Source of the DNA: Paenibacillus graminis
GTDB lineage: Bacteria > Bacillota > Bacilli > Paenibacillales > Paenibacillaceae
Direction of reading: 5' to 3'
NCBI RefSeq assembly: GCF_000758705.1
Contig: NZ_CP009287.1
Span: forward strand, 6,324,001 to 6,388,000
DNA: 64,000 nt
The translations under genes were made by a program, and so were the position numbers. The notes under the pieces were generated by a model, which was not told the DNA's origin, did no database searches, and worked only from the letters and a program-made list of their open reading frames with translations. This document shows, piece after piece, positions 3,282 through 53,821 of the stretch (the stretch's first letter is position 1; each line of letters opens with the position of its first letter).

Positions 3282-4289
3282 CTACTCGATACTGATCTCT
3301 TTAATCTTAATTGTATTCAGCTTACTGAGGTCAATATACTCATCATCGACTTTAACTAAAGGGGTCTCAATATCGTGGGGGTTCAAGTAGACGATTTCAC
3401 CGACCCGTCCATCGGTCAAAATGACCTCGCGGCCGACCGTCCGTTTCACAATATTCTCCAGGAACACCGAGACAATATGCGGGTCCAGCGCGCCAAAGCT
3501 CCCTCTTCTCATCTGATCGACAATGATATGGAAGGGTACCGGCTCATGATAGGGGCGTCTGGAAGACATCGCATGAAAGATATCGGCGACGGCTACGATC
3601 TTGGCGTAGGCATCAATCTGTTCTTCTTTCAGTCCCAGCGGATAACCCCTGCCGTCATTCCGTTCATGGTGCTGCAGCGCCGTCAGCGTGATATGGGAGT
3701 TCGCTCCCGTGGTTTCCTTGAGCATTTCATAGCCCAGAATCGTATGCTTCTTGACTAATTCATATTCATCCGGGGTCAGCTTGCCCGGTTTGTTCAATAT
3801 CTCGGAAGGGATTTTCAGCTTGCCGATATCATGAAGGGTTGCAGCCAGTGACAGCACCGACAGCTCCGCTTCACTCATATTCATCCATCTGCCGATCAGT
3901 GTCGACAATACACCTACCCCGATATTGTGCTGGTATGTATAGTCGTCTTTGCCCTGAATCGCATCGAACAACGCAAAAATATCGGATTGGCGGGATATTT
4001 CCTGAACAACAGGCACGACCTCCTTGCGGATATCCGCGAGCGGAACCTTGCGTGAGGTCCGGAAGGACTCAAATAAATCCTTCGATACATTCACCACATT
4101 GTACGCCAGCTCCTTGCTGGAAGGTGCCTGCCCCTCTTCACCCGCAAAGATAATGTCGAGAATATTGATTTTTTGCTTGCGGATCAGCTCCAAATGTTCT
4201 GCATTCAAAATGCTGTTCGCAGGAATTACCGTTACCCCGTAGGTATTGATCAAATCATTTTTTATTTTTTTGCCTAAATATCTTTCCAT
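3282..4289 (-). CDS. HD-GYP domain protein, probable cyclic-di-GMP phosphodiesterase
   Basis: A 335-residue cytoplasmic protein. The HD-GYP domain (about residues 125-300) has the metal-binding LHDIGK pair and the family's HHERNDGRGYP signature, which marks enzymes that hydrolyse cyclic-di-GMP to GMP or pGpG. The N-terminal 120 residues are not a recognised input domain. The ATG at 4289 is preferred over one 57 bp upstream because GGGAGGACGGGGT stands just before it. The gene lies tail to tail with the amidase, 12 bp apart. Confidence 0.88.
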   Translation of the reverse strand: MERYLGKKIKNDLINTYGVTVIPANSILNAEHLELIRKQKINILDIIFAGEEGQAPSSKELAYNVVNVSKDLFESFRTSRKVPLADIRKEVVPVVQEISRQSDIFALFDAIQGKDDYTYQHNIGVGVLSTLIGRWMNMSEAELSVLSLAATLHDIGKLKIPSEILNKPGKLTPDEYELVKKHTILGYEMLKETTGANSHITLTALQHHERNDGRGYPLGLKEEQIDAYAKIVAVADIFHAMSSRRPYHEPVPFHIIVDQMRRGSFGALDPHIVSVFLENIVKRTVGREVILTDGRVGEIVYLNPHDIETPLVKVDDEYIDLSKLNTIKIKEISIE

Positions 4290-14837: not shown

Positions 14838-15123
14838 AAGCAAAAAGAACCCCACCTCCAAGACGTATGGTCTTGGGGACGAGATTCTCGCGGTACCACC
14901 CCAGGTTTATTAATATGTCGCCATATTAATCTCATTAAGTACAGCATTGCCTTCAGGCAATGCTTATACTCTAGCTCTGTAACAGGAGCTCCTGTCGCAC
15001 CATCCCCAGCATCTGCTATAGTTCCGGTACGCCGCTCAGAGGCTTGGTTCAATACACCGTTCTTTGCCCCTTTTCAGCATCCGGAGCTCTCTGTAAAAGA
15101 ATGGATATATCTACTCTTCTCAT
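14838..15123 (-). promoter_or_regulatory. T-box riboswitch controlling glnS
   Basis: The leader shows the standard parts on the minus strand. Stem I begins with AGAAGAGTAG near 15120 and has the apical AGAGAG and GCTGAAAAGG elements. A candidate specifier CAA (Gln) lies at 15046-15044 within GAACCAAGC. The T-box core GGGTGGTACCGCG is at 14901-14889. A terminator with arms CCAAGAC and GTCTTGG and a U-rich tail lies at about 14880-14842. Uncharged tRNA-Gln should bind the specifier and the T-box bulge and allow read-through into glnS. The specifier assignment is by position and by agreement with the gene. Confidence 0.93.
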
Positions 15124-15178
15124 CATCGCGTTTCCTTAATTTATTGCGTGAAGCCTATAAATTCTAATCATTTTACAT

Positions 15179-42643: not shown

Positions 42644-42735
42644 ATGACGAACTCCTCTTCTTTATGCTTTTTATTTAAGTGTTCTGCCCGTTAGCTCAAT
42701 GAATTGCTCATCTCTTCTACAATCCTTTTGAGTCA

Positions 42736-48340: not shown

Positions 48341-48521
48341 ATGTTCGTTGAAAATAAAGTATGAACTGACCGCTGTTGTTGTTCAACTAATGTTTCCCGT
48401 TAGCGCATCAAGCGGCTGCCAGAGAACGGACAGCCACCTCTTCGGACGAAACTAATTTCCGCTTAACCCTTTACTTTATCAAAACATGTTGCCGCTAAAT
48501 AAGTGCTTAAGTTGCGATAGT
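48341..48521 (+). other. Intergenic stretch, no gene seen
   Basis: Between repeat copy A and the methyltransferase promoter. No reading frame with a ribosome binding site and no clear structure. Confidence 0.4.
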
Positions 48522-48529
48522 GATATAAT
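48522..48529 (+). promoter_or_regulatory. Extended -10 promoter of the leader/methyltransferase unit
   Basis: TGATATAAT (48521-48529) fits the extended -10 form TGnTATAAT. No good -35 is present at 16-18 bp, as is usual for such promoters. Transcription would begin near 48536, before the leader peptide. Confidence 0.55.
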
Positions 48530-48563
48530 AATATCAGGCAAACTTAGAAAGAGGGTGAATCCT

Positions 48564-48614
48564 TTGGCTATTCATTTTGGTGTAACACTCGATCTGCTCC
48601 ACGCAAAGTCTTAA
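48564..48614 (+). CDS. Putative 16-residue leader peptide
   Basis: TTG at 48564, stop TAA at 48612. GAGGGTG stands 6 bp before the start. The encoded peptide is MAIHFGVTLDLLHAKS. Its last codons form one arm of two mutually exclusive pairings (see the attenuator entry), which is how leader peptides of erm-type genes work. It is too short to judge by composition, so the case rests on position, ribosome binding site and RNA pairing. Confidence 0.55.
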   Translation: MAIHFGVTLDLLHAKS

Positions 48615-48719
48615 GGGCAAACAGACCCTGAACCTTGTGTGGAGCTAATTTGGCATCCTGAGTTAGGTCTGTTGGTCCAGAGACTTTGCATCCTATATGA
48701 AATTAATTCATAAAGGAGC
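48590..48719 (+). promoter_or_regulatory. Candidate ribosome-mediated attenuator ahead of the rRNA methyltransferase
   Basis: CTCCACGCAAAG (48597-48608) can pair with CTTGTGTGGAG (48634-48644). Alternatively GCAAAGTCT (48603-48611) pairs perfectly over nine bases with AGACTTTGC (48681-48689), with AACAGACC (48620-48627) and GGTCTGTT (48666-48673) as an inner stem. The two states exclude each other and share the end of the leader-peptide frame. No U-run follows, so translational rather than transcriptional control is more likely. The AAAGGA of the methyltransferase site (48712-48717) could also pair with TCCTTT at 48560-48565. Confidence 0.5.
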
Positions 48720-48727
48720 GGGTTTCG

Positions 48728-49471
48728 ATGACAAGCATGACAAATTTCTCATTAAAGCAATATCGTAAAGAGCAGGACTATAGCTATACCCTTGGCGCAT
48801 ACGCCACTATTGAAATGATTCAGGCACGGCCGGAGATCGTAAAAGCCGTTTATATCCATTCTGCTTATCGGGATCGCAGTGTTCTTGAAACCCTCTGCCA
48901 ACAACAGCATATTCCAGTTGTCCAGCAGGATAAGGCTTTCGCCAAGGTCGATCGGAAAGAAAATTGCTTCGTGTTTGGGATGTTTTCCAAATATTCAGAT
49001 AGGCTTGCTTCCGATAAACCTCATATTCTCCTCGTCCATCCTGGGGATATGGGCAATCTCGGCACCATTATCCGGATAACCGCAGGTTTGGGATTTGGCA
49101 ATCTCGGGATCGTTACTCCCGGAGCAGATCATTTCCATCCCAAAGCCATCCGCGCCTCTATGGGGGCATTATTCCGGATTCAATGTTGTTCCTTTCCCAG
49201 CTTCGAGTCATATCGCAGCCAGTTCGGTCGGCACGACCTGTTTTCTTTCATGCTTCGTGCTGCAACCACACTGACACCCGAGACCTGTCCCGTAACGGAG
49301 CTGTTTACCCTTGTTTTCGGAAATGAAGCTGCAGGTCTTGACGAAGAAATATTTAGCCATGTGGGAACCGGCTTGAAAATAGCACAAACCCCAGACGTGG
49401 ATTCCCTGAATTTATCCATTGCCGCAGGCATCGGCGCCTATTTGTTCGCGTCAAAAAACAAGCTCATCTGA
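48728..49471 (+). CDS. SpoU/TrmH-family RNA 2'-O-methyltransferase
   Basis: A 247-residue RNA methyltransferase. The C-terminal SPOUT domain has the three knot motifs: GDMGNLGTIIRIT (motif 1), LVFGNEAAGLDEE (motif 2) and DSLNLSIAAGIGAY (motif 3). The N-terminal 85 residues form the L30e-like substrate domain. The family methylates riboses of 23S rRNA or tRNA; TsnR of this family gives thiostrepton resistance. AAAGGAG precedes the ATG. A leader peptide and alternative RNA pairings upstream suggest induction by a ribosome-targeting drug. The target base cannot be told. Confidence 0.85.
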   Translation: MTSMTNFSLKQYRKEQDYSYTLGAYATIEMIQARPEIVKAVYIHSAYRDRSVLETLCQQQHIPVVQQDKAFAKVDRKENCFVFGMFSKYSDRLASDKPHILLVHPGDMGNLGTIIRITAGLGFGNLGIVTPGADHFHPKAIRASMGALFRIQCCSFPSFESYRSQFGRHDLFSFMLRAATTLTPETCPVTELFTLVFGNEAAGLDEEIFSHVGTGLKIAQTPDVDSLNLSIAAGIGAYLFASKNKLI

Positions 49472-49513
49472 CTACTAACATTCTCTCGTGTATAAGATTT
49501 TGAAGCTTCATCG

Positions 49514-49540
49514 GAGGGCGGAAGCCCTCTTCTTTACTTT
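49514..49540 (+). terminator. Terminator of the methyltransferase gene
   Basis: GAGGGC, GGAA tetraloop, GCCCTC, then a T-rich tail TTCTTTACTTT. Confidence 0.75.
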
Positions 49541-50530
49541 CCAAATCTCCCTTCATCCAACTGGGGCGATCCCAATCCCACTACATCGGAGCTGCACTTC
49601 AAAGGGTCTCACACCTTCCATTGTCTTAGCTCACGAACTTAAGGCTTAACTCCCTCTTGCTGGTTACTATCCTGCCCGTTAGAATTCCTGTAGAATGAAT
49701 AACTTGGACTTTGTACAAAAAAAGATTACCTCTGTAACATGGGAGCGTAATGCCTCATTGATGCAAGAATTTTCCTCGTAGCCCAAAATTTGGGGCCATC
49801 AACAAGATTAGTCCACTTATTAGAAACGATGTCCATGAGTCGTAAGCAATCATTCGAACAAATTCCCATATATTCGAAGGACTCTGATGTCCATTGCCTC
49901 GATAACTTTCTCAGTCGTCAACGGCTTGGAATTCGCTTCGGCTTTTTCGTTATACAACTGCACGAGTTTTGCAGCCAGCGCCTCCTCCGCTTCTTGCTTA
50001 AAGCTTGTTTTGAAAGTAAACTATAAGGAATGAGTTGGATCGAATAATCGATCTGCTGCCCCGCCGAATCTTAAATATTGTCGCGGGTGGGCGGGATGGA
50101 TACGCCCTTCGTGATTATGCTTGTCTGGCGTTCCTAGAGACTTCGACCCTCGACGAACTGTAGATAAGCAAAACGTACGATTCGTGAAGAGAACAGGAGA
50201 AATGTAAGCATGAAAAAGACATTTAACCTAATACTGAAGTGGTGACTGTTTCGAACATTTCTTAATTTCCTACCATTCCCTCATTCCGTCACTCGATACC
50301 CACCCTTTAATTGTCATATATTTAGACGAATTCCTTTTTAGAGAGGTTCAATCTCTATCCCTGCACAATAAGAATAAGCAACCTTACGGGAATGGCGGGT
50401 ATCCGAACTCAATACCAAGTTATTTTTCAAAATTTACGCTACCGAATCCATGAGACCGATGAGTTCCCGGATCGGCTGTCGTCTATATAAATGAAGGCAT
50501 AAATGAACACAAACTTATTTGACGAAGAGG
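49541..50530. other. Decayed stretch without an intact gene
   Basis: About 1 kb with no convincing full gene. It contains a protein-like fragment on the minus strand (49850-50022, listed separately) and a ribosome binding site followed by an 11-codon frame at 50210-50245 (MKKTFNLILKW) that may be the start of a lost exported protein. It probably represents old, broken genes. Confidence 0.5.
49850..50022 (-). pseudogene. Fragment of an unrecognised protein gene
   Basis: An open minus-strand stretch of 57 codons without a usable start. It reads like real protein, helical and charged (FKQEAEEALAAKLVQLYNEK, then KPLTTEKVIEAMDIRV), and is bounded by stops. Another frame immediately upstream (QQIDYSIQLIPYS) may be its continuation across a frameshift. 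Family unknown. Confidence 0.35.
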
Positions 50531-53303: not shown

Positions 53304-53589
53304 TATAATTTCCCCCGTCCAATTTATAGTGTGGGCGGCATAAGGAAAGAAACGTGCCGTGCGGCATGTTTTTGAGAAAAAGCAAATATTCTGTTGTATT
53401 TCAAGCTCACCAAGTTAACACGATTACGCCATCCCTAAAAAAAGGACAGTATCCGTTTCCCTTGCGTCTATGTTCATGAAATGCACAGTCTTCTCCTCTG
53501 CCGCAGCAGAACGCTCTGTGTTTCTTTCCGTTATTGCGCGATCCCATGAAATGAATAACTTCTGATTGCACCCATAGAAACGTTGTGTG

Positions 53590-53768
53590 AAAGGTCGCCC
53601 TCGCATTTTCCGTTTCCATTTACGGCTCTGGTGCATCACCGGGAGGTCCCCGCCGAACATTTCGAACACCTCCACCTCGTCAGCTTACATCTGCCGTGAT
53701 CCGTTCAAGCCCTGCCCTATGGGCAGCTGCTGTCCCTTCTCCCCCGCGCAAGATCAAGCTCTGGCGCT
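53590..53768 (-). ncRNA. glmS ribozyme/riboswitch
   Basis: On the minus strand the core begins at AGCGCC (53768-53763); self-cleavage should fall after the A at 53768. The conserved catalytic segments follow: CTGACGAGG, then GTTCGAAATGTTCGGCGG and CCTCCCGG, as in the Bacillus glmS ribozyme. Glucosamine 6-phosphate acts as cofactor, and cleavage lowers glmS expression. The 3' boundary near 53590 is approximate. An unusually long stretch of about 285 bases separates it from the glmS start. Confidence 0.93.
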
Positions 53769-53821
53769 TGCTGTTGCCAACCTTACTATCCCCGCTTTCC
53801 TTCTGGAATGACACTTAATCT

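Follow-up and report, generated by a model that had tools for sequence, protein, structure and literature searches.

The question raised by this locus is why the gene of a SpoU-family RNA methyltransferase should stand behind a short reading frame and RNA segments that can pair in two ways, in a layout for which an earlier note had suggested the logic of drug-induced erm attenuation. The gene lies in a 64,000-nucleotide stretch of Paenibacillus graminis DNA (contig NZ_CP009287.1, positions 6,324,001 to 6,388,000; hereafter the window), and all coordinates of the unit are on its + strand. An extended -10 promoter element (TGATATAAT), read directly in the sequence, occupies 48521–48529, so that the start given in the earlier note (48522) falls one base inside it. 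It is followed by the Shine-Dalgarno sequence of the leader (AGAGGGTG, 48550–48557), read in the sequence and aligned among copies, and by a leader ORF of 16 codons with a TTG start and a TAA stop (MAIHFGVTLDLLHAKS, 48564–48614). Homologous peptides occur in the loci L003–L006, L015 and L020, the last two having ATG at the codon where the window leader has TTG. Then come the mutually exclusive pairings, the AAGGAG Shine-Dalgarno sequence of the methyltransferase (48713–48718, read in the sequence), the gene itself (48728–49471, 247 aa; PF00588, E 7.5e-27) and an intrinsic-terminator-like hairpin found by a terminator scan at 49513–49530. The parts named in the earlier note were thus recovered where it had placed them. 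TGNTATAAT matched the 64-kb window once, at TGATATAAT, with 1.79 matches expected by chance and at least one in 86 of 100 shuffles; since chance matches are expected, the promoter call rests on its position and on its recurrence in L003, L005 and L006 (the L004 copy is one base short). Upstream homology from 48382/48396 to 48490 was left out of the unit, being absent from L005.

The SpoU methylase domain (PF00588, 94.6 bits against a gathering score of 29.7) was the only Pfam match of the enzyme, which makes it a member of the SpoU/TrmH superfamily and excludes an Erm methyltransferase. The enzyme stayed under the NCBIfam cut-offs of all 11 families listed; identity with RlmB was rejected at 52.3 of the 160.15 bits required, and identity with the NshR/TsnR thiopeptide-resistance methyltransferases at 35.1 of 425 bits (NshR_TsnR model, E 8.9e-9). 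Resistance methyltransferases of the SpoU type, acting as 2'-O-methyltransferases, are known in the TsnR/NshR and AviRb groups. Solved structures are only distant relatives, with 7qiu (E 4.9e-13) and 5kzk (E 1.1e-12, placed first by a profile search) nearer to the enzyme than 3nk6, 3gyq and 1x7o, which we take to be TsnR/NshR or AviRb-group enzymes. An AlphaFold prediction was set aside for its poor quality (mean pLDDT 46.9). LlmA of Paenibacillus sp. LC231, a predicted 23S rRNA methyltransferase giving clindamycin resistance, was rejected as a match for the enzyme, being described as RlmK-related and not SpoU; the word leader is absent from the main text of that report (PMC5155152).

The nearest named copies of the enzyme gene are from Paenibacillus species. 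At E 1e-30 it was found in eight of 394 genomes of the window's family, in two of 398 Bacilli genomes (the window's genome included) and in one of 104 from the family of G695. In three other genomes (L003, L004 and L005) the enzyme is 96% identical to that of the window, compared with 81–84% for GlmS, and the DNA flanking the gene is unrelated. Horizontal transfer is the simplest reading of these identities and flanks, with the SpoU gene apparently bringing along its own copy of the leader. More distant relatives are numerous (1913 database proteins at E 1e-15); among the matches listed below the closest few they are mostly 50–58% identical, with Lachnospiraceae as the source of many named ones. 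Metagenomic relatives (P0003–P0007) stand at 60–63%. Plasmid and phage collections held no match to the enzyme of at least 60% identity, the plasmids gave no DNA match to the whole unit, and a scan of viral contigs gave no confirmed relative of the enzyme. An integron-like reading of the cassette ends, raised by CCCGTTAG near both ends in L004, was dropped because CTGCCCGTTAGCTCAA also occurs at window position 42684–42699. The repeat around CTGCCCGTTAGCT(T/C)AA is found in the window at 42684–42699, 48396–48404 and 49671–49682, and in L004 at 2619–2681 and 3938–3959; lying near the edges of the L004 homologous stretch and between genes elsewhere, it looks like a scattered intergenic repeat.

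The earlier note had made conservation of the leader frame alongside the enzyme a point on which its proposal depended. The leader peptide was present in all seven Bacilli copies of the enzyme at 53% identity or more, namely the window, L003, L004 and L005 (96%), L006 (93% over the part kept), L020 (60%) and L015 (53% in the genome search, 51% in alignment A3), an outcome in favour of the proposal. Their peptides comprise MAIHFGVTLDLLHAKS and near copies, MAITFGYVLGALHARS... and MAVQFGRVLAKLHAKS..., and the frame of L015, with 29 codons, is annotated as a hypothetical protein of Fontibacillus panacisegetis. Seven testable relatives at 42–51% identity (L007–L010 from Clostridia, L016–L018 from the window's family) gave no leader with either of the covariance models R1 and R2 introduced below; L011, which came without upstream DNA, was excluded from this comparison. 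In L006 (3001–3447, the J2TS4 copy) the enzyme gene breaks off after about residue 148, behind an intact leader.

The leader proved not to be private to the SpoU enzyme. The seven SpoU leaders, and no CD3324 or FusB leader, went into model R1, which at a threshold of E ≤ 0.01 had matches in 134 of the 394 genomes from the window's family. Reading of 76 of these loci (L026–L101; 15 returned, L041 from the window's own genome and 60 chosen among the matches listed, mostly top ones) placed 73 before a gene of the CD3324 family (NF040785, weakly Mor-like), two before broken CD3324-like genes and one before an acetyltransferase. Model R2, built from 65 leaders with that of the window among them, had matches in 98 of 398 Bacilli genomes; among the matches listed, 65 genomes belong to families other than that of the window. 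The 71 R2 loci read stood before CD3324 and FusB-like genes (29), a FusB-like gene only (23), a CD3324 gene only (18) or neither (1); these counts include L132, which is the same place as L041, and score L130 as FusB-like only, although a CD3324 gene can be seen to begin at that locus. The E-values of both models are rough, and the 72.8 bits of the window leader with R2 come from a model trained on it; R2 also matched this leader weakly on the minus strand (15.9 bits), as self-complementary RNA does.

The window's genome holds four copies of the leader, before the SpoU gene, two CD3324 genes and one gene for a FusB-like EF-G-binding protein, the last three copies (L041, L122 and L134) at 2625583, 2722133 and 3646817; a fifth R2 match was no better than chance (E 0.139). 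Both domains of EF-G-binding proteins (PF07299 and PF16571) are present in the FusB-like protein of L134, which, like that of L130, matches the FusB/C/D/F models with scores below their narrow cut-offs. A Pseudalkalibacillus plasmid carries an annotated CD3324-FusB pair with the leader. The leader, which in Bacilli mostly has CD3324 and FusB-like genes behind it, is best read as a widespread family of translational attenuators. Several arrangements at single loci may be added. In L197 (494–1530), as in the 29 R2 loci with both genes, the CD3324 and FusB-like genes follow each other behind one leader; by analogy, a WhiB7-like activator role is conceivable for the Mor-like CD3324 protein. In L058 the leader precedes a GNAT acetyltransferase that starts with MKYKNAND, as does the CD3324 gene of L055, as if the acetyltransferase had captured the switch by recombination. 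On the Priestia megaterium plasmid pBMV_2 (L200, 1831–3718) a macrolide-family glycosyltransferase gene stands directly before an EF-G-binding protein gene, a pair that gave no match to the leader model.

The window leader folds at -67.6 kcal/mol compared with -52.1 kcal/mol for its shuffles (z -3.39; 2 of 200 shuffles were as good). In one fold, segment 1a (48596–48606) pairs with segment 2 (48635–48645); in the rival fold, segment 1b (48603–48627, made up of 48603–48611 and 48615–48627) pairs with segment 3 (48666–48689), 48603–48611 with 48681–48689 and 48615–48627 with 48666–48678. The two pairings are mutually exclusive, 48603–48606 being common to both. By its 3' end segment 3 can instead pair with segment 4, in a 3:4 hairpin (48685–48722) that lies over the ribosome site of the enzyme, supported by pair counts and by a fold of -12.7 kcal/mol for 48684–48727. 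The other segments were assigned by pairing counts and covariation. From a set of 83 leaders, 71 were segmented, 75 entered the first fold scan and 83 the chimera test, and pairing was counted in 82 (1:3) or 83 (1:2). Pairing 1:2 joined at least 9 of 13 positions in all 83 leaders (mean 11.9), compared with 57% for shuffled segments (mean 8.7), and in the inner 1:3 helix the own partner beat foreign partners in 3320 of 4164 comparisons.

Covariation was counted on a MAFFT alignment (A8) of 65 of 67 selected leaders (without L075 and L081), which was not fitted to structure, with the structures taken from row L094. Pairing 1:3 was formed in 90.0% of cells, with two-sided changes in 16 of 23 pairs and 133 cells; shuffles had means of 10.0 pairs and 50.4 cells, and in 500 of them neither observed value was reached, while the number of further pair types was reached in 2 of 500. 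Sliding the 1:3 partner by 1–3 columns left at most 45.1% paired. The alternative fold, 1:2 plus 3:4, was paired in 87.4% of cells (96.9% for 1:2; 80.3% for 3:4, which has several weak pairs), with two-sided changes in 11 of 28 pairs and 63 cells; shuffle means were 7.9 pairs and 31.6 cells, and the observed values were reached in 10 of 500 shuffles for pairs and in none of 500 for cells. Kinship among the leaders can inflate shuffle tests of this kind. Both exclusive folds are thus supported by covariation in 65 related leaders, 1:3 beyond all 500 shuffles, and on this point, which the earlier note had proposed to check in homologous leaders, its pairings hold.

Fold scans pointed to a position from which a ribosome would open the start site. 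A 30-nt ribosome mask was set at each position, and the energy cost of opening the ribosome site together with the start codon was read out. In 75 leaders this cost dropped most, by a mean of 2.0 to 3.1 kcal/mol, with the P site 15–21 nt ahead of GCAAAG; it was raised with the P site at -12 to +30, and lowered by at most 0.75 at +33 to +54. The best opening fell at -21 to -15, three of the 23 positions tested, in 60 of the 75 leaders. A second leader set (70 of the 71 R2 loci) had the same minimum, with a mean of -2.34 at -18 and 63% lower by at least 1. In the window, opening the stretch from Shine-Dalgarno sequence to start codon costs 14.7 kcal/mol, and 9.2 or 9.4 with a ribosome at codon 8 or 9 (48585–48590), the P-site position predicted for an inducing stalled ribosome; the 9.2 kcal/mol still needed in the open state is high. 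A ribosome at codon 8 left the Shine-Dalgarno core as paired as before (0.20 unpaired in either state) and raised the unpaired value of the core plus spacer from 0.11 to 0.37. L020 had no marked opening. Chimeric leaders also opened at -18 (mean -2.12 vs. -3.24 for cognate ones; a drop of at least 1 in 68% vs. 77%), with roughly two thirds of the effect retained at -18 and one quarter at -21, in a scan whose main start was set by rule and is wrong in some leaders (L015, L055 and L058 among them). They keep part of the opening because the core helix is nearly invariant.

The leader peptides carry recurrent motifs at this predicted site. A start with a ribosome site and a frame running into segment 1 was found in 82 of 83 leaders by a looser rule; by a stricter one a start was found in 76, four lacking a start and three a segment. 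The 82 assigned leaders use three reading frames over the same RNA (34, 45 and 3). Of the 34 leaders in frame 0, 22 have L at -15, 17 have V at -18 and 13 have F at -21, and the IDFVL group of class A has F7-V8-L9; L031 and L063 retain IDFVL despite a different frame over the RNA segments. In class B, [RK] at -20 with [LF] at -17 occurs in 25 of 45 leaders and in at most one at any other offset tested; these motif counts are not independent, the leaders being related. Many class B leaders are without the second basic residue of the +X+ motif, and the second leader set has further peptide classes without an obvious known motif. In class A (17 leaders, L015 and L020 included) changes favour third codon positions in the proposed frame, with synonymous to non-synonymous counts of 113:159 in frame and 31:132 and 1:105 in the shifted frames. 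The class B signal is weak, at 37:58 in frame and 33:66 and 17:53 shifted.

In the erm scheme segment 2 is freed to pair with segment 3, and residues 6–9 of ErmCL read IFVI. With azithromycin, ErmCL is described as stalling at Phe7 and Ile9 in the P site, Ile9 being the one needed for induction (PMC13148051), and ErmDL as stalling when Leu7 of its Arg6-Leu7-Arg8 occupies the P site (PMC8298421). As in the attenuators of ermC and ermD, the present unit combines a leader peptide, mutually exclusive stems and a hidden ribosome site, and the F7-V8-L9 of class A leaders and the [RK][LF] of many class B leaders at the predicted site resemble what is described for ErmCL and ErmDL. The SpoU leaders have x-[VT]-L at positions 7–9, and their likeness to ErmCL is therefore partial. 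The unit departs from the erm scheme in that segments 2 and 3 are both partners of segment 1, and in that its enzyme belongs to SpoU and not to Erm. The erm-type logic proposed by the earlier note is supported by conservation, by covariation and by the fold scans, for a leader that turns out to be widespread beyond SpoU genes. The proposal of the note is in this way partly supported, antibiotic resistance being a putative role.

A further parallel is fusB of the Staphylococcus aureus plasmid pUB101, for which fusidic-acid-dependent translational attenuation before an EF-G-binding protein is described (PMC12493156); FusB-like EF-G-binding proteins are likewise main neighbours of the present leader family. 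These neighbours support a role in drug response, but R2 did not match the S. aureus fusB leader in the pUB101 region (L196) up to E 1. With the same switch standing before genes related to a known ribosome-drug resistance gene, the SpoU enzyme is, by analogy, probably switched on when ribosomes stall.

The reading that we prefer, at a probability of roughly two in three, is a ribosome-operated translational attenuator carried by a mobile gene, in which a stall near codons 8–9 of the leader frees the start of a SpoU enzyme that protects ribosomes. At rest, the end of the leader frame would pair with segment 2 and segment 3 would join the start-site hairpin, leaving the enzyme poorly translated. 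A translation inhibitor would stall the ribosome near leader codons 8–9 and segment 1a would be covered; with a ribosome over segment 1a, 1:2 cannot form. Segment 1b would then capture segment 3, the start-site hairpin would lose its lower half, and the enzyme would be made and would modify RNA, probably rRNA, protecting the ribosomes.

A real attenuator might instead report slow translation or starvation in general, the SpoU protein being a housekeeping-type RNA modification enzyme under stress control. This is unlikely but deserves consideration: relatives of the enzyme at about 50% identity are numerous, many of the named ones being from Clostridia or Lachnospiraceae, the four such relatives with upstream DNA have no leader, and several unlike classes of leader peptide sit on the same RNA fold. 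It fits poorly with the rarity of the gene in the window's family (8 of 394 genomes) and its apparent movement from species to species, and with the same leader preceding FusB-like EF-G-binding proteins, whose staphylococcal relative is described as a fusidic-acid-induced, translationally attenuated resistance protein (PMC12493156).

That the RNA folds act without a translating ribosome, for example on RNA stability or by binding a ligand, the peptide being incidental, appears improbable. It is true that the RNA segments are retained across leaders whose peptides differ in sequence, and even in frame, and that the codon-position signal of class B is weak; against this, 82 of 83 leaders have a start and a ribosome site with the frame entering segment 1, IDFVL is kept in L031 and L063 across a change of frame, the synonymous counts of class A single out the proposed frame, and the position of the peptide motifs agrees with the optimum of the fold scan. 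Transcription attenuation, with the alternative folds deciding termination before the gene, is very improbable. For the yxjB leader of Bacillus subtilis both a terminator and an SD-hiding hairpin are reported (PMC6851288), but the terminator scan gave no terminator-like site on the + strand at 48500–48727, and the last leader hairpin contains the ribosome site of the enzyme and has no long T-run after it.

Beyond the preferred attenuator, a broader proposal can be made, which we hold tentatively and at somewhat less than even odds. The leader may be a widespread, portable stalling switch of Bacilli, in which several types of arrest peptide share a single fixed position on a conserved, refolding RNA, acting as a general sensor of tunnel- or elongation-blocking antibiotics. 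It would drive the Mor-like CD3324 proteins and FusB-type EF-G rescue factors, and would have been recombined before new effectors, here SpoU as an inducible 2'-O-methylation resistance enzyme, elsewhere an acetyltransferase.

Translational attenuation is known already, as is a non-Erm rRNA methyltransferase (RlmA-II, yxjB) described behind a drug-stalled leader peptide in B. subtilis (PMC6851288). Unlike that leader, for which a terminator is reported, the SpoU leader has no terminator that the scan could find, and the enzyme is SpoU and not RlmA-II. Among the open-licence papers listed by our searches, none was seen to describe this RNA family, its association with CD3324 and FusB-like genes or an attenuator before a SpoU enzyme, in agreement with the earlier note, which knew of no described case before a 2'-O-ribose methyltransferase. 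The rare and apparently mobile SpoU enzyme is a candidate inducible resistance factor, and the leader family offers a natural series of different leader peptides on one conserved RNA switch. In Rfam 15, no family reached its gathering score in the window leader (best below it, uup RNA, E 1.1, 16.1 of 36.8 bits), and the L041 leader had a best E of 2.1 or worse. Elsewhere in the window, Rfam matches, all on the minus strand, were to a group II intron domain, a T-box leader and the glmS ribozyme (505–646, 14872–15135, 53564–53779).
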